A stretch of 59,413 nucleotides of DNA, from assembly GCA_030697645.1 (NCBI GenBank), contig JAUYPI010000016.1, forward strand, positions 1-59,413. Direction: 5' to 3'. A program made the position numbers and the translations under genes. The DNA comes from a bacterium. GTDB taxonomy: Bacteria; Patescibacteriota; Minisyncoccia; Phycocordibacterales; VMGT01. The first letter of the stretch is position 1; the number at the start of each line of letters is the position of its first letter. The notes beneath the pieces are model-generated. The model was not told the origin of the DNA, searched no databases, and saw nothing but the letters and a program-made list of their open reading frames with translations. Of this stretch, positions 13,293 through 59,012 are shown piece by piece.

Positions 13293-14585
13293 TTATGAGC
13301 TCAGCCGAAGGTTGCCTTGCGCGCGAAGTTTTGGATTGACACGGAACGAGTCGAGGCCGAGCTTCGCAAGGCGAATGTGCGCCCCGGCCGCGATCATGAT
13401 GGCGTTGTCGCCGGTTAGGGAAGGGTTCGGGAGGAGGAGCCGAGTTTTCGGGCACTCGAGCATGAGGGAGCGTTCAAGTTCTCGGCGCAGGTGCATGTTT
13501 GCCGCGACCCCGCCGCCGAGGAGCACCGTGTGTGCACCGAAGTGTTGTGCGGCGCGAAGTGTTTTTGCGACCAAGACCTCGACTACCGCATTCTCAAACT
13601 CGAGCGCCATCATTTTTGTTAATAACGTGTCCGATGCCGTATGTTGAACTTTTTTATGTAACACGCGGTGTTGGACAGGTGCCTTGAGTAGGTAGAGGAC
13701 GGCGGTTTTGAGGCCGGAGAAAGAAAAGTCGAAATCGGGGGAGTGAAGCATTGGACGTGGTAACCCGATTTCTGATTTCTGATTTCTGATTTCTGATCGA
13801 CGTTTCCTGGCTTTTTCGGCGAGACGGGAGATTTCGGGGCCGCCGGGATAGGGGAGGCCGAGCATACGGGCGACCTTATCGAACGCCTCACCAGCCGCGT
13901 CGTCGCGCGTTTCGCCGACCACTCGGTAGTCGAGCCAATCGCGCATGAGCACGAGCTCGGTGTGCCCGCCGGAGACGAGGAGAGCGAGGGCGGGGAATTT
14001 AGGGACTAGTAACTGGTAACTGGTAATTGGGGACGGCACGTCGTTTCGGTGCAGAAGCGCCGAAACGACGTGCCCCTCCATATGGTTGATTGGTATTACC
14101 GGCACGTCCCAGAGGACCGAGAGCGCGCGGGCAAAGTTGATCCCGACCCAAAGCGCAGGTTCGAGTCCGGGGCCGTAGGTAACCGCGATGGCGTTAACCG
14201 GTGGTTTTCTCGACACAATTTTTGGCAATGCGCTCAGTAGTTGTTGCAGTAGTTCCCCCTCACGTTCAAGTATCGTACGAAGTTTCCGTATCTTGTTGTC
14301 ATAATTTTGAATTTTGCATTGTAATTTTTTATTTTGCTTTTTTATTTTTTCATTTTCAGGAATGGTTGCCTCACTGAGCACCGCTTCAAGCAGCGGCACC
14401 AGATTCTTCGCGTGCTCCCTCTTTGCCAATGACGGAAACACTCCCCCGAACGGCGCGTGAAGCGCGACCTGCGAATAGAGGCTGTTTCCGAGTAGCGAGA
14501 GTCGCGCGCGAGTCAAACCGCCGCGTGTCCCGATGAGGCAGACGGCGGTTTCATCGCAGCTTGTCTCTACAGCGAGAACGCGCAT
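13293..14585 (-). CDS. tsaD: tRNA threonylcarbamoyladenosine transferase TsaD, with three repeat-derived inserts
   Basis: A 430-residue member of the Kae1/TsaD ASKHA family, which makes t6A37 in ANN-decoding tRNAs. Conserved parts: VETSCDET at the N-terminus, the metal-binding HMEGH (~residue 165), LVSGGHTEL (~205), FSFSGLK (~288) and the LGGGVAAN ATP site (~370). The usual length is ~340. The excess is explained by three low-complexity inserts: residues ~77-105 (KIKKQNKK, KIQNYDNKI), ~183-196 (PITSYQLLV) and ~262-275 (SEIRNQKSEIG), each encoded by heptamer arrays in the DNA. The frame is kept throughout. The ATG at 14585 is preferred over the GTG at 14594. No tsaB or tsaE is nearby. Confidence 0.93.
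   Translation of the reverse strand: MRVLAVETSCDETAVCLIGTRGGLTRARLSLLGNSLYSQVALHAPFGGVFPSLAKREHAKNLVPLLEAVLSEATIPENEKIKKQNKKLQCKIQNYDNKIRKLRTILEREGELLQQLLSALPKIVSRKPPVNAIAVTYGPGLEPALWVGINFARALSVLWDVPVIPINHMEGHVVSALLHRNDVPSPITSYQLLVPKFPALALLVSGGHTELVLMRDWLDYRVVGETRDDAAGEAFDKVARMLGLPYPGGPEISRLAEKARKRRSEIRNQKSEIGLPRPMLHSPDFDFSFSGLKTAVLYLLKAPVQHRVLHKKVQHTASDTLLTKMMALEFENAVVEVLVAKTLRAAQHFGAHTVLLGGGVAANMHLRRELERSLMLECPKTRLLLPNPSLTGDNAIMIAAGAHIRLAKLGLDSFRVNPKLRAQGNLRLSS
13766..13799. repeat. heptamer array inside tsaD (GATTTCT)
   Basis: Four to five tandem GATTTCT units; in the sense direction AGAAATC codes the cyclic peptide S-E-I-R-N-Q-K. Confidence 0.9.
13999..14085. repeat. heptamer array plus palindrome inside tsaD (GGTAACT)
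   Basis: AGTAACTGGTAACTGGTAAT units, then two 15-base inverted arms (GGCACGTCGTTTCGG and complement) around TGCAGAAGCG. The sense strand reads PITSYQLLV. Confidence 0.85.
14287..14362. repeat. heptamer array inside tsaD (AATTTTG)
   Basis: Degenerate AATTTTG/ATTTTGC/ATTTTTC units in 7-base steps. The sense strand gives a Lys/Gln/Asn-rich stretch. Confidence 0.7.
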
Positions 14586-14863
14586 GTGCCTCACGCTAAC
14601 ACGCCCTCAGCGCGATGGTCAAAAAGGAGGACTATGCAAGTAGCGCGTCCACGACATCCTTCACGGCCGCGTCATCGGTGCGGCCCCTGATTCAGTTATA
14701 CCGTCGCAGTCTTCGCTCTCGCGGGCACCACGCGGTTTATCTATACCCACCATGTCACCAAAACGAATGGCACAAACAGTAAAAAGCATTACAGCCAGAG
14801 CATTGATCTTGTTTCTTGACTTTAGTTAACCACGCGCATACCGCGCAGCTTGCTCGGCGGTTC
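14586..14863. other. Gene-free stretch upstream of tsaD
   Basis: No convincing gene. An AAAAGGAGG followed by an ATG at 14634 opens only an 18-codon frame. On the minus strand a short frame ending DVVDALLA before a stop at about 14633 looks like the tail of a lost gene, but nothing upstream of it is readable. Confidence 0.4.
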
Positions 14864-35772: not shown

Positions 35773-38394
35773 ATGCGTTCATATAATCACATAGCTATTG
35801 AGCCGAAGTGGCAGAAGAAATGGGGGGAAGATCGGCTGTACGAAACTCCTGGTGCTGTTTCGGGGAAAGAAAATTACTACCTCCTTACCGAATTTTCCTA
35901 CCCCTCCGGCACGCTTCACGTGGGACACTGGTACGCGTTTGCCGTGCCGGATATTTTAGCGCGAAAAAAAAGAATGGAAGGGTACAATGTGCTTTACCCG
36001 GTCGGCTTTGACGCGCTCGGGCTTCCTGCCGAGAATGCGGCGATCAAGCGCGGCATTGATCCGCGGCAGTGGACCTACGGGAACATCGCCCACATGCGCG
36101 AGCAGCTCCGCTCGATGGGTAACTCGTTCGACTGGTCGCGCGAGGTGGTGACCGCCGACCCGGAATATTACCGCTGGACACAGTGGCTTTTTCTGAAGCT
36201 ATTTGGCGCTGGGCTTGCGGAGCGAAAAAAGGCGCCAGTCAATTGGTGCCCGAGTTGCGAGACCGGTCTTGCGAATGAGCAGGTGCTCAAGCAACAGCGG
36301 ACAGCGAACGACGGACAACTAATTACGGTATCTGTATGCGAGCGATGTGAGACTCCGGTTGAACAGCGGGAGCTGGAGCAGTGGTTTTTGAAGATTACGA
36401 AATACGCGGATCGGTTGCTCGATGACCTTGCGGGGCTCGACTGGCCCGAGGAGATCAAGGAGGCGCAGCGGAATTGGATAGGGCGCTCGGAAGGAGTCGT
36501 GATTAAATTCGAAATCCGGAGCACGAAATCCGAAACAAATTCAAAATCAGAAATTCAAAATTCAAAACACGCCCCAGTTACCAGTTACCAGTTACCAGTC
36601 CCTTCCGTCGAAGTTTTTACAACGCGTCCCGACACACTCTTTGGCGCGACGTATCTCGTGCTTGCGCCGGAGCATGCATTCATATCAGAAATTAAAGATC
36701 AAAAATCAAAATTACAATTTCAAATTCAAAATGGAGAAGAAGTAGAGGCGTATATTGAACGCGCGCGAAACAAAACTGAGCTTGAACGCGTGGTGGAGCG
36801 AGGCGAAAAAACGGGCGTTGAGCTTAAGGGCATCACGGCGGTCAATCCTGCAAACGGCGAAGAAATTCCAGTGTGGATTTCTGATTATGTGCTCGCGCAC
36901 TACGGTACCGGGGCGATTATGGGCGTCCCTGGGCACGATGAGAGAGATTTTGCATTTGCACGATTACACGATCTTCCCATTAAGATGGTTGTGTGTCCGC
37001 ACTATCCGACACCGACCTGTCCGGTGCTCGACCATGCGTATACGGGAGAGGGGCACCTCGTCGGCTCTGGAGAGTTTGACGAACTGCCGAGTGGTGAGGC
37101 GCGCCGCGCGATTACCAAGCACGTCGGGGGGACCATGACCGCGACGTACCGCTTACATGATTGGCTTATTTCTCGTCAGCGGTATTGGGGCTGTCCGATA
37201 CCGATTGTCTATAATCCGGAGGGGAAGGCGCACCCGGTTCCGGAAGAACACCTGCCGTGGCTTCTGCCCGATGACGTTACAGATTTTACGCCGAAAGGGA
37301 CGTCGCCCTTGGGTACGTCGCAAGAACTTGTCGCCCGCACCGAGCGCATCTTTGGAAAAGGCTGGCGGCCGGAGATAGACACACTCGATGCGTTCGTTGA
37401 CTCATCGTGGTATTTTTTGCGCTACCTTGACCCGCATAATGATCGCGAATTTGCATCGCGGGACGAGCAGGCGCTCTGGATGCCGGTTGACCGTTACTCC
37501 GGGGGCGCGGAGCATACGACGATGCACGTTCTCTATTCGCGATTTTTTTATAAGGCAATGCACGACCTCGGGTTGGTCGCGTCGCGAGAAGCGCGAGGAG
37601 GGTCTGACCCTCCTCAACAGCCAAGGAGGGTCAGACCCTCCTTGGCTACTTCAGAACCGTACGCGGTACGGATGAACCGCGGTCTCGTGCTCGGCACCGA
37701 CGGCAGGAAGATGAGTAAGCGTTGGGGCAACGTAATAGATCCGGATGCGGAGGTCGCGCGGGTTGGAGCGGATGCGGTGCGAATGTATCTTGCGTTTATC
37801 GGCCCGTACAACGAGGCGGGGCATTACCCGTGGCAGACGGGGGGACTTATCGGAATGAGAAGGTTTCTTGAGAAGGTGTGGAAACTAAAATCAAAAATCA
37901 AAAATCAAAAATCAAAATTACAACTCAAAAGTGAAAATGTTCGTCAACTCATCCACAAAACTATTCGGAAAGTTGGCGATGATATCGAGGCGTTTAAGTT
38001 CAATACCGCGCTCAGCGCATTGATGATATTGGTCAACGCGTTTGAGAAAGAGGAGGAGGTCGGGCGAGAGCACTACGAGACGCTGCTCGTGCTCCTCGCG
38101 CCGTTTGCGCCGCACCTCGCGGAGGAGCTCTGGGAGAGCATGGACCAGAGGGGCTCGATCCATAGTGAGCCGTGGCCTACTTACGACCGCCAACTGCTTG
38201 GGGTCGAGCAGCGCATCGTGGTACAGGTTGACGGCAAAGTGCGCGCGACGTTCGAGAGCGTCGAGGATCTCGACGAGGCGGCGATTGTTGCCCGCGCGCA
38301 GGTGCTCCCAGCCCTCGAAAAGTACCTTGCGGGTAGGAAAATCCGGCGTACTATCTATATCTCCGGCCGTCTGCTTAATATCGTGCTCGAGTGA
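35773..38394 (+). CDS. leuS: Leucyl-tRNA synthetase with repeat-derived inserts
   Basis: An 873-residue class Ia synthetase charging tRNA-Leu. HIGH-type motif TLHVGHW (~residue 46), a zinc-knuckle region CPSCETGLANEQV, CP1 editing domain (~220-420, with the TRPDT-x-G motif), KMSKR (~646) and the C-terminal anticodon domain. Four unusual inserts keep the frame: residues ~247-277 (SETNSKSEIQNSK, PVTSYQLPV), ~306-321 (IKDQKSKLQFQIQN), ~608-624 (GGSDPPQQPRRVRPSLA, from a palindrome) and ~705-718 (SKIKNQKSKLQ). An SD-like AAAGAGGA precedes the ATG. Confidence 0.95.
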   Translation: MRSYNHIAIEPKWQKKWGEDRLYETPGAVSGKENYYLLTEFSYPSGTLHVGHWYAFAVPDILARKKRMEGYNVLYPVGFDALGLPAENAAIKRGIDPRQWTYGNIAHMREQLRSMGNSFDWSREVVTADPEYYRWTQWLFLKLFGAGLAERKKAPVNWCPSCETGLANEQVLKQQRTANDGQLITVSVCERCETPVEQRELEQWFLKITKYADRLLDDLAGLDWPEEIKEAQRNWIGRSEGVVIKFEIRSTKSETNSKSEIQNSKHAPVTSYQLPVPSVEVFTTRPDTLFGATYLVLAPEHAFISEIKDQKSKLQFQIQNGEEVEAYIERARNKTELERVVERGEKTGVELKGITAVNPANGEEIPVWISDYVLAHYGTGAIMGVPGHDERDFAFARLHDLPIKMVVCPHYPTPTCPVLDHAYTGEGHLVGSGEFDELPSGEARRAITKHVGGTMTATYRLHDWLISRQRYWGCPIPIVYNPEGKAHPVPEEHLPWLLPDDVTDFTPKGTSPLGTSQELVARTERIFGKGWRPEIDTLDAFVDSSWYFLRYLDPHNDREFASRDEQALWMPVDRYSGGAEHTTMHVLYSRFFYKAMHDLGLVASREARGGSDPPQQPRRVRPSLATSEPYAVRMNRGLVLGTDGRKMSKRWGNVIDPDAEVARVGADAVRMYLAFIGPYNEAGHYPWQTGGLIGMRRFLEKVWKLKSKIKNQKSKLQLKSENVRQLIHKTIRKVGDDIEAFKFNTALSALMILVNAFEKEEEVGREHYETLLVLLAPFAPHLAEELWESMDQRGSIHSEPWPTYDRQLLGVEQRIVVQVDGKVRATFESVEDLDEAAIVARAQVLPALEKYLAGRKIRRTIYISGRLLNIVLE
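36512..36602. repeat. heptamer arrays inside leuS (editing domain)
   Basis: CGAAATC CGGAGCA CGAAATC CG..., then AATTCAA units, then AGTTACC three times. All lie in the stop-free orientation. Confidence 0.9.
36688..36733. repeat. heptamer array inside leuS
   Basis: AGAAATT AAAGATC AAAAATC and further units to TCAAAAT, in 7-base steps. Confidence 0.8.
37596..37642. repeat. 19-bp perfect inverted repeat inside leuS
   Basis: AGGAGGGTCTGACCCTCCT and its exact complement, 9 bases apart. Each arm is itself almost palindromic. It lies just before the KMSKS region. Confidence 0.9.
37887..37925. repeat. heptamer array inside leuS (ATCAAAA)
   Basis: Four tandem ATCAAAA units code I-K-N-Q-K-S-K. Confidence 0.9.
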
Positions 38395-38681: not shown

Positions 38682-39728
38682 ATGCTTCAAAAACAAACTA
38701 TAAAACTTGGCTTTCGTCCCGCAGCGGTGGGCCGCCGGATGCTTGAGGTGCTTCCGGAGCGCTCGCGCGATGTTCTGGTAAGCCGTTTCGGGCTTGCGGA
38801 AAACCCCGAGCGCATGACGCTCGAGGCGATTGGCGATGTCTACGATGTCACGCGCGAGCGTATCCGCCAGATCGAGAACCACGCGATCGCTCTGGTGCGC
38901 AAGTCGGATGCGCTCCGGCGTGAGGGCGTCGTGTTTGATGAGCTCCACAAAACGATTGACGAGCTCGGCGGCCTCGTCGCCGAGCGCGAGCTCCTTCCGC
39001 TCCTCGGCCGGGACGAGAGTGCGCGCAATCACATCCATTTTCTCCTCGTGCTCGGTGATCCGTTCGTGAAGCTCAAGGAAGACGATGAATTCCACCATCG
39101 CTGGCACGTCAGCACAGCGCGGGCAGAGGCGGTCGAGACAGCGCTCCGTGCCTTGGCCGAGCGGCTAGAGAGAAGCGACCTCGTATCAGACTCAGAGCTC
39201 GTTAGTATGTTTCTCGAGGAGCTCCGTAGCGCCTCAGTGCTCGAGCCGCGGGAGGATGTCGCGCGCCGGTACCTCGGCGTCTCAAAGATGATCGGCCGCA
39301 ATCCCCTCGGCGAATGGGGCCACGCGCGCTCGAGCGGTGTGCGCGTGAAGGGCGTGCGCGACTTTGCCTATCTGGCGATCCGCCGGCATGGTTCCCCCAT
39401 GCACTTTACGGAAGTTGCGCGGGAGATCACGCGGCTCTTCGGCCGCGCGGCGCACGAGGCGACGTGCCACAATGAGCTCATCAAAGATTCGCGGTTCGTG
39501 CTTGTCGGCCGCGGGCTCTACGCACTCTCCGAGTGGGGCTACGCTGGCGGCGTCGTACGCGACGTGATTCGCGCGGTGATTGAGCGCTACGGCCCCCTGC
39601 CGCGCGCTGAGCTTGTCGAGAAGGTGCTGAAGGAACGTTACGTGAAAGAGAACACCGTCGTCGTCAACCTCGAAAACCCGAAGTACTTCAAGAAGAGTGC
39701 GGAGGGGATGTACACATTCGTTTCGTAA
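38682..39728 (+). CDS. Sigma-region-4-like plus HARE-HTH DNA-binding protein
   Basis: A 348-residue protein. The first ~75 residues resemble sigma factor region 4 (SRDVLVSRFGL, LEAIGDVYDVTRERIRQIENHAI), the helix-turn-helix that reads the -35 box. The rest is charged, and the last ~90 residues (MHFTEVAREITRLF ... NELIKDSRFVLVGRGLYAL ... ENPKYFKKSAEGMYTF) match the HARE-HTH fold of RNA polymerase delta and related proteins. It has no regions 1-3, so it is not a full sigma factor; it probably contacts polymerase or promoter DNA. With leaderless promoters common here, it is a candidate initiation regulator. Confidence 0.75.
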   Translation: MLQKQTIKLGFRPAAVGRRMLEVLPERSRDVLVSRFGLAENPERMTLEAIGDVYDVTRERIRQIENHAIALVRKSDALRREGVVFDELHKTIDELGGLVAERELLPLLGRDESARNHIHFLLVLGDPFVKLKEDDEFHHRWHVSTARAEAVETALRALAERLERSDLVSDSELVSMFLEELRSASVLEPREDVARRYLGVSKMIGRNPLGEWGHARSSGVRVKGVRDFAYLAIRRHGSPMHFTEVAREITRLFGRAAHEATCHNELIKDSRFVLVGRGLYALSEWGYAGGVVRDVIRAVIERYGPLPRAELVEKVLKERYVKENTVVVNLENPKYFKKSAEGMYTFVS

Positions 39729-39788
39729 AAGTGATGAGAAAGTGTGCGCCGCTCTTTTGGTCTTCGGTGCTGTGTAGTCGTGCGTGGT

Positions 39789-39915
39789 TCGAATTTTCAA
39801 TTTTCAATTTTCAATTTTCAGTGAATTTCCAATGATTCAATGACGGGCGGCGTCGTGTTTGAAAATTTGGTAATTGAAAATTGATTGAAAATTGAGCATT
39901 GAAAATTTGGTACGC
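39789..39915. repeat. heptamer inverted array (AATTTTC type)
   Basis: AATTTTC repeated four times, core GGGCGGCGTCGTGTTTG, inverse arm GAAAATT/GATTGAAAA, then GGTACGCTGTG. Confidence 0.9.
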
Positions 39916-49365: not shown

Positions 49366-50472
49366 ATGGCGGTGCCAATTTCTATTGCAGGCAGTGCCAA
49401 AACCATCGGCGGCGATGGCGTTTTTGTTATTGCGGAAATTGGGAAGAATTTTATCCAGACGGAAGAAGAGCGGCCGCGGGAGGAGTATCTCGCGAACGCA
49501 GTCGCGCTCATTGACGCGGCGGCGGAGGCGGGGGCGGATGCGGTGAAGTTTCAAACCCATGAACTTGAGGACGAGTTCATGCCCGGGCTTACGGTCGTCT
49601 CGCCGCATTTTAGCGGCTCTGACCGCTACCGCTGGATTAAGCGAAATATGGAGGCGACGCCGCCTGAGTTCTGGCATGCAGTCAAGGCGCGCGCTGAGGA
49701 GCGCGGGCTCGTGTTTTTCTCGACGCCGATGAGCCGCAGGGCCGCGGAGAGGCTCCAGAGCCTCGGCGTCCCTATTTGGAAACTGGGGAGCGGCGACGTG
49801 CAAGATTACGCGACCCTCGACTTCATAGCGAGCACCGGAAAACCGCTCATCATTTCAACCGGCATGGTGGGGCTTGCGGAGCTGAGCGAGCTTGTCGCGC
49901 ACATTCGCTCGCTCAGGGTTCCACTTGTGGTGCTTTATTGTATCAGCCAGTACCCGGCACCTGCGGAATATTTTAACCTTGCCACGATTGAGAGCTTGCG
50001 CGAGGAGTACCCCGACGTTGTTATCGGCTTTTCTGATCACTCACTCGGAGAGAGCATTGCTCTCGCCGCGGTGAAGCTCGGCGCTCGGGTCATTGAGAAA
50101 CATTTTTCGTTTTCTCGCGAGCTGTGGGGTGCGGATCATAAAGTGTCGATGACGCCTGACGAATTCGCGCTCATGGTGCGTGCGATCCGATCTGGCAGTT
50201 ACAAAAGCATCGACCCGTCCCCCTACTATGGTTCGTGCGATCGTGAGCTTGAGGGCGCGAATAATAAATTCCGGCCGTATTTTAATAAGGCGCTCGTCGC
50301 CGGTTGCGACATGCCGGCAGGTACGGTGATTACAAAAAAAATGATCTACGCGATGCGGCCGAAGATGTATATCGACGGCCTCGCGGCGAATAGGTTTTAT
50401 GAGGTGGTGGGGAAGAGGGCGGCGCGCGACATGAAGAAATATCAGCCGGTCAAGACGGACGACCTTGCGTGA
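49366..50472 (+). CDS. neuB: NeuB/SpsE-type sialic-acid-like sugar synthase
   Basis: A 368-residue protein: a TIM-barrel domain (FVIAEIGKNFIQ, EAGADAVKFQTHE, FFSTPMS, WKLGSGDVQDYATL, PLIISTGMV, GFSDHS, ARVIEKHFSFSRELWGADHKVS) and a C-terminal SAF/antifreeze-like domain (FNKALVAGCDMPAGTVITKKMIYAMRP). It condenses phosphoenolpyruvate with a 6-carbon amino sugar to a nonulosonic acid (sialic, legionaminic or pseudaminic type). It is followed by a NeuC-type epimerase gene. Confidence 0.92.
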   Translation: MAVPISIAGSAKTIGGDGVFVIAEIGKNFIQTEEERPREEYLANAVALIDAAAEAGADAVKFQTHELEDEFMPGLTVVSPHFSGSDRYRWIKRNMEATPPEFWHAVKARAEERGLVFFSTPMSRRAAERLQSLGVPIWKLGSGDVQDYATLDFIASTGKPLIISTGMVGLAELSELVAHIRSLRVPLVVLYCISQYPAPAEYFNLATIESLREEYPDVVIGFSDHSLGESIALAAVKLGARVIEKHFSFSRELWGADHKVSMTPDEFALMVRAIRSGSYKSIDPSPYYGSCDRELEGANNKFRPYFNKALVAGCDMPAGTVITKKMIYAMRPKMYIDGLAANRFYEVVGKRAARDMKKYQPVKTDDLA

Positions 50473-50612
50473 ATTTTCAATTTTCAATTTCTAATTTTCA
50501 ATCAATTTTCAATTACTCAATTTTCAAACACGACGTCGTCCGTCATTGAGCCATTGACACATTGAAAATTTATTGAAAATTGATAATTAAAATTGGAAAT
50601 TATTATAAGCAC
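50472..50612. repeat. heptamer inverted array (AATTTTC type) between neuB and neuC
   Basis: AATTTTC AATTTTC AATTTCT AATTTTC, core AAACACGACGTCGTCCG (inverted relative to 1521), inverse arm. Confidence 0.9.
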
Positions 50613-58914: not shown

Positions 58915-59012
58915 TTAGCTTAATAAGACGAGCTTATAGCTTTTAGCTGTTAGCTTTTGAGAGGCTACGCCGTCGTGCTAAAAGCTAAAAGCTATCAGCT
59001 AAAAGCTCGTAT
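58915..59012. repeat. heptamer inverted array (TTAGCTG type) between mreC and mreD
   Basis: TTAGCTG TTAGCTT, AGCTTTT AGCTGTT AGC, core CTACGCCGTCGTG, inverse CTAAAAGCTAAAAGCTATC. Confidence 0.9.

Follow-up and report, generated by a model that had tools for sequence, protein, structure and literature searches.

Heptamer repeats and REP-like palindromes in surface loops of a leucyl-tRNA synthetase from a Phycocordibacterales bacterium

The leucyl-tRNA synthetase (LeuRS) gene leuS of a bacterium of the order Phycocordibacterales contains four segments, S1 to S4, that are built from repeats. In our judgement it is probable that four pieces of dispersed repeats from the same genome have built up in this intact, essential gene, filtered into surface loops that tolerate them. 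S1, S2 and S4 are made from 7-nt units, and S3 consists of two paired REP-like palindromes. Rickettsia palindromic elements (RPEs) and intragenic REPs are precedents; the new part is a hot spot for heptamers that extends across the order. Below, 'the window' is the whole stretch of DNA that was analysed (59,413 nt of contig JAUYPI010000016.1), and coordinates given without a locus name are positions in it.

The leuS gene and its product

In the window, leuS occupies 35773..38394 on the forward strand as one open frame of 873 aa; its repeats are thus stop-free and frame-keeping, as the initial annotation had it. The product contains the LeuRS editing domain (Pfam, E=1.6e-57), and its motifs are intact: HVGH (HxGH), TTRPDT in the editing domain and KMSK at residues 646-649. 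The AlphaFold model has a mean pLDDT of 87.7 and matches solved LeuRS structures in the PDB, the best match being T. thermophilus LeuRS (2bte). Gene names used here that go beyond Pfam families (TsaD, CysRS and others) combine Pfam matches with motif reading. In a draft assembly of 20 contigs, one could suspect a decaying pseudogene or an artefact of assembly or binning. This is barely credible for leuS, given the single intact frame, the conserved motifs, the high-confidence fold and the fact that this is the sole copy found in the 1.03-Mb draft genome; similar arrays in many independent genomes also argue against an artefact.

The three heptamer arrays (36512-36602, 36688-36733 and 37887-37925) and the 19-bp perfect inverted repeat (37596-37642) that had been reported in leuS are all present. 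Borders were placed by alignment with LeuRS from 53 relatives in the same order (mostly related at the level of the order, the nearest having <=~59% identity over full-length LeuRS), and the gains are ~24 residues for S1, ~7 for S2, ~22 for S3 and ~5 for S4. Together the segments lengthen the protein by a net ~58 residues rather than by the ~75 first proposed, a figure that corresponds to the span coded by repeats. Full-length copies of the segments in distant LeuRS proteins had been named as evidence against insertion; none of the 53 relatives has S1-S4, and in the alignment with Thermus LeuRS most of S1 and S2 falls in gaps.

Mapping onto the AlphaFold model places the segments in loops. The complete list of stretches with pLDDT<50 is 255-264, 267-271, 607-625 and 714-717, that is, S1, S3 and S4, where the low values are partly forced, these inserts having no aligned homologue rows. 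S2 falls in a loop whose block-average pLDDT is ~74. The inserts probably form exposed, tolerant surface loops that are unstructured and near-neutral.

Heptamer segments in leuS

S1 (36506..36604, forward strand) lies in the loop of the N-terminal beta-hairpin of the CP1 editing domain, at residues ~245-277, where its aligned block is 53 residues long compared with ~29 in the 53 relatives. It had been described as a heptamer array; the array is there, but the segment as a whole is composite, with a hairpin arm (S1a) followed by CCAGTTA units (S1b). S1a (36506..36570, forward strand) is one arm of a dispersed hairpin element of ~140 nt and consists of GAAATCC/GAAGCAC/GAAACAA heptads up to the AACAC centre. 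In BLAST searches, its 65 nt match both arms of three intergenic hairpins (L068:12053-12193, L068:1538-1679 and L082:15386-15526), with further matches at L087:1421-1484 (83%) and inside lepA (L087:3287-3226). S1b (36574..36599, forward strand) is a CCAGTTA x 3.7 array according to TRF and encodes PVTSYQLPV. Exact CCAGTTA x3 occurs at three distinct sites in this genome, all in sense ORFs, and at none in 296 other genomes of the order.

S2 (36684..36737, forward strand) is the heptamer composite ATCAAAA-ATCAAAA-TTACAA-TTTCAAA, with an aligned block of 33 residues compared with 26 in the 53 relatives. The gain is best placed at 36703-36723, where three heptamers (AAATCAA AATTACA ATTTCAA) encode KSKLQFQ and the flanking codons still align with those of the relatives. 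S4 (37883..37935, forward strand), an (ATCAAAA)4-TTACAACTCAAAAGTGAAAA array, lies where the anticodon-binding helical domain begins; its block of 31 residues is within the relatives' range of 22-51, and S4 may for this reason be a replacement rather than an insertion. An array in metS (L087:15500-15452) is 96% identical to S4 over 49 nt (BLAST) and has the corresponding position in its own gene, where the anticodon-binding domain begins. S2 is in turn 84% identical to S4 over 50 nt and 87.5% identical to the metS array over 48 nt, and all three have the non-periodic tail TTACAA-TCAAAAGT in common.

Such composites can be weighed against local replication slippage alone, by which each array would have grown in place from a chance seed, with no copying between sites. 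In many bacterial genomes, 7 nt is the most frequent period among long simple repeats (cited in PMC4679880), relatives have different heptamers at the same loops, and the gain in S2 is exactly three units, all of which would suit slippage. However, what S4 shares with the metS array, and S2 with both, includes the non-periodic tail, and most of S1a matches both arms of the three intergenic hairpins. Independent slippage would not yield shared composites, so slippage alone is disfavoured for S1, S2 and S4 here, and we consider it unlikely. If leuS instead took up pieces of the genome's dispersed repeats, as we prefer, the heptamers would have been copied between sites by slippage together with ectopic template switching or copying, which is our best guess; no source element or enzyme for the heptamers was found.

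Heptamer families across the genome

The genome was sampled over 418 kb (the window plus loci L068-L087, 41% of the total). Strict 7-nt periodicity, defined as at least 18 of 21 positions agreeing at a 7-nt shift, is found in 54 segments of this sample, compared with 0-2 for each lag of 4-6 and 8-13. A BLAST search of the sample with S1-S4 returns 151 matches, self-matches included, compared with 5 on reversed sequence; the period-7 excess and these match counts exclude chance as the source of the repeat segments. The heptamer families have the units ATCAAAA, CCAGTTA, AATTTTC, GAAATCC and others.

Period-7 segments in the sample number 82, with 24 in Pfam-supported genes and 58 elsewhere. The genes with arrays are those for TsaD, LeuRS, PolX, four glycosyltransferases, ThrRS, an Ile/Val-type RS, ArgRS, MetRS, LepA and TatD, together with a Mur ligase, a methyltransferase and a Zip transporter (also Pfam-supported), and there is an apparent enrichment in aminoacyl-tRNA synthetase (aaRS) genes. 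The tsaD gene (13296-14594), for example, has two arrays in frame (AGAAATC and CCAGTTA-like; 13762..14033, reverse strand). The initial annotation had assumed that essential genes rarely tolerate insertions of this kind; the assumption does not hold in this genome, where metS, cysS, thrS, argS, the Ile/Val-RS gene, tsaD, lepA and polX carry similar ones.

An inverted partner (score at least 14, within 250 nt) accompanies 42 of the 58 non-genic arrays compared with 5 of the 24 in Pfam-confirmed genes. Under a stricter rule, by which the partner must also beat 40 random placements, the counts are 18/58 and 3/24. From these counts, non-genic arrays are mostly hairpin arms and genic ones mostly single. 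The intergenic hairpins of ~140 nt matched by S1a, and one at L087:1421-1556, are made of heptads around an AACACG..CGTGTT centre, and the window has intergenic inverted-pair arrays of AATTTTC/GAAAATT and AGCTTTT/AAAAGCT at 39786-39907, 50469-50602, 58930-59007 and 1524-1642. Comparing the two arms of one hairpin with arms of different elements revealed no clear difference in likeness; self-correction within hairpins, which was considered, is thus unsupported.

Exact ATCAAAA x3 arrays are found in 6/297 genomes of the order, this one included. All of these loci are in sense-strand open frames, two of them weak (a 74-aa frame in L168 and an array at the extreme N-terminus in L172), and the Pfam-supported genes among them encode LeuRS, MetRS, an Ile/Val-type RS, PheRS beta, two RNase HI, a methyltransferase, Fpg and a glycosyltransferase. 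In the two RNase HI, L170 (G081) and L174 (G188), from two families, one and the same N-terminal hairpin loop holds the array. A single mobile heptamer spread across the order is ruled out by the rarity of ATCAAAA x3, by the restriction of CCAGTTA x3 to this genome and by the differing units of the relatives.

A property of the unit length itself bears on why such arrays are found in genes. The three frames of a 7-nt unit encode cyclic permutations of one heptapeptide (for ATCAAAA, these are IKNQKSK, SKIKNQK and QKSKIKN), and a stop-free heptamer array is therefore frame-blind and passes the selective sieve easily. The antisense of most heptamer units tested carries a stop. One peptide in every frame is a simple reason for 7-nt units to persist in genes. 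Selection would act as the sieve, with survivors in the stop-free sense orientation, of a net length that is a multiple of three and in a tolerant loop, and the inserts that pass it would be near-neutral.

REP-like palindromes and a RAYT gene

S3, best placed at 37579..37644 (forward strand; 66 nt, 22 codons), encodes the peptide ASREARGGSDPPQQPRRVRPSL. Its aligned block has 43 residues compared with 21 in each of the 53 relatives, which rules out the peptide as ancestral sequence. One segment had been said to lie just before the KMSKS loop; S3 is indeed upstream of it, but with a gap of ~20 residues before KMSK, and so not immediately. The RNA fold of S3 has z=-6.3, and the arms of the 19-bp inverted repeat are at 37596-37614 and 37624-37642. 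They lie within two REP copies in forward-strand coordinates, copy 1 (GAGGAGGGTCTGACCCTCCTC, 37595..37615) and copy 2 (AAGGAGGGTCAGACCCTCCTT, 37623..37643), the latter inverted relative to the former.

The REP core (GAGGAGGGTCNGACCCTCCTC; the palindrome family is also written GAGGAGGGTC) has exactly 10 copies in the genome, copy 1 among them, when <=3 mismatches are allowed. The 21-nt core is identical in 9/10 copies apart from a variable centre base; when that base is A, none of the three frames of the palindrome contains a stop. A search of 20 further genomes, including two from the same family, did not find the core with <=2 mismatches. The copies are linked to a Y1 transposase gene of the RAYT type (PF01797 match at G000:C4:39100-39339), in which the HFH and Tyr motifs are readable: copies at 38795 and 39605 flank the gene and one at 39032 is in frame inside it. 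The seven others are all in frame as well, as pairs in leuS, in cysS (where the pair adds ~13 residues compared with relatives) and in a 2-hydroxyacid dehydrogenase gene, and as a single copy in a UDP-glucose dehydrogenase gene. With 8/10 copies in frame in genes, close to the 85% coding share of the genome (ORFs >=100 aa), there is no hint that the family avoids genes. The flanks of the 10 copies differ, and no GTAG or CGTC tag beside them is common to all. A second Y1 match (C8:63000) is a short fragment (85-aa frame) with none of these palindromes nearby.

S3 most likely arrived by way of the RAYT transposase acting on a single-stranded hairpin, in which case the product of the linked gene would have mobilised the REP-like pair. 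Neither a transposition event nor a pair of strains with and without the insert was observed, and the copy number of the family (10) is low.

The same LeuRS loops in relatives

The leuS genes of the 53 relatives contain 27 lag-7 segments, compared with 1-8 at other lags. The loops of S1, S2 and S4 make up 10.4% of leuS and hold 21 of the 27, at residues 241-282 in 12 relatives, 300-324 in 7 and 704-727 in 2 (P=4e-16 for this concentration, with segments treated as independent). By comparison, metS and cysS of 44 relatives have one lag-7 segment in 64.6 kb. The units vary from relative to relative (ACGCAAA, ATTCGAA, GAATCAA, CCAATTA, ATTTCAA and GAATTAT, for example), so the loop arrays look like independent events. 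In several relatives (L036, L060 and L062) the S1 loop is heptamer-periodic at its ancestral length; plain insertion cannot account for this, which points to turnover or overwriting as well. The S1 loop of L046 (leuS of G018) holds the peptide VIPAEAGIQSENSNLDPRIREDD, of the kind VIPAEAGIQ...LDPRIREDD, which we take to be encoded by another, widespread palindromic repeat.

The variety of these loops also matters for the idea that the insertions are adaptive, with basic peptides such as KSKIKNQKSK and ARGGSDPPQQPRRVR kept for tRNA binding or some other help. Lys/Arg-rich peptides in an RNA-binding enzyme, the occurrence of such inserts in several aaRS genes and the shared position of S4 and the metS insert, where the anticodon-binding domain begins, would speak for it. 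Nevertheless, the peptide is dictated by the repeat and varies among relatives at the same loop, like repeats are also present in glycosyltransferases, LepA, TatD, PolX and RNase HI, and AlphaFold predicts no structure for the inserts; we regard adaptive insertion as very unlikely.

In many relatives, LeuRS contains whole enzymes nested within it. Pfam finds nested Nudix domains in 15/54 LeuRS and nested serine hydrolase/alpha-beta hydrolase domains in relatives; ITPase-like sequence was recognized by eye, with no Pfam match. The nested enzymes are in the S1 (CP1) loop in L019, L044, L051, L061, L025 and L049, after residues 414-419 of the window's LeuRS in L031, L035, L038, L039, L041-L046, L048, L051-L053 and L060, and after residue 484 in L062. 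Extra domains are also seen in other synthetases of G042, namely a histidine phosphatase in an Ile/Val-type RS (L171) and NlpC/P60 inside PheRS beta (L178). Three relatives have short LeuRS of 620-718 aa (L055, L056 and L057, from G052, G051 and G015) in which the CP1 editing domain is missing wholly or in part; Mycoplasma mobile LeuRS is likewise without the CP1 editing domain.

A more far-reaching idea, possible but doubtful, is that the heptamer families are self-propagating, frame-blind coding repeats that invade the same LeuRS loops (the CP1 hairpin and two others), keep these loops elastic and so prepare the capture of nested Nudix, serine hydrolase and ITPase-like enzymes. With the S1 loop holding enzyme domains in some relatives, it becomes possible to test whether a junk insert can lead on to a nested domain, and the recurrence with different heptamers allows the tolerance of an essential enzyme to insertions to be measured in hundreds of genomes. 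More broadly, the results suggest that small bacterial genomes can routinely draw protein loops from repetitive, probably selfish DNA, and that single-copy essential enzymes are no exception.

Comparison with known systems

Intragenic REPs, often in pairs that encode 20-30 aa, have already been described, including in tRNA synthetase genes (PMC3733652). The S3 family resembles REP/RAYT systems (REPtrons; PMC3733652, PMC2817692) in its short, near-identical palindromes, inverted pairs, flanking RAYT gene and in-frame positions in genes. It differs in having no GTAG/CGTC tag and only 10 copies, 8/10 of them genic, whereas REPs are high-copy and mostly extragenic. Judged by its sequence, S3 works like a REP that lacks the tag and the copy number typical of the described superfamilies.

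For the heptamers, the TAACTGA repeats of Beggiatoaceae, Cyanobacteria and Bacteroidetes (PMC4679880) are similar in being 7-nt tandem repeats that are stop-free in one orientation only and sometimes lie within ORFs; CCAGTTA also resembles TCAGTTA, the reverse complement of TAACTGA. That family, however, has a single unit, is mostly upstream of genes and, in ORFs, is mostly at protein ends (PMC4679880), whereas here there are many units, paired as hairpins outside genes and occupying internal loops of housekeeping genes. The elements of four heptanucleotides in Geobacter metallireducens are also dispersed, with 49 copies between and within genes and sometimes several per gene, but their unit is GC-rich, a regulatory role was proposed and, in the part of that report consulted, no loop hot spot is described (PMC2700814). 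For the aaRS of candidate phyla, a literature search found no report of heptamer arrays or of nested domains.

RPEs, which the initial annotation took as the nearest precedent, are palindromic, probably selfish DNA found in frame in many functional genes. By this description they are a fair precedent at least for the palindromic S3, inserted in frame in functional genes. They differ in belonging to another lineage, in the linkage of a RAYT gene here and in the non-palindromic heptamer arrays found here in genes: leuS has taken in two unrelated repeat classes, and the heptamers are not palindromic elements.
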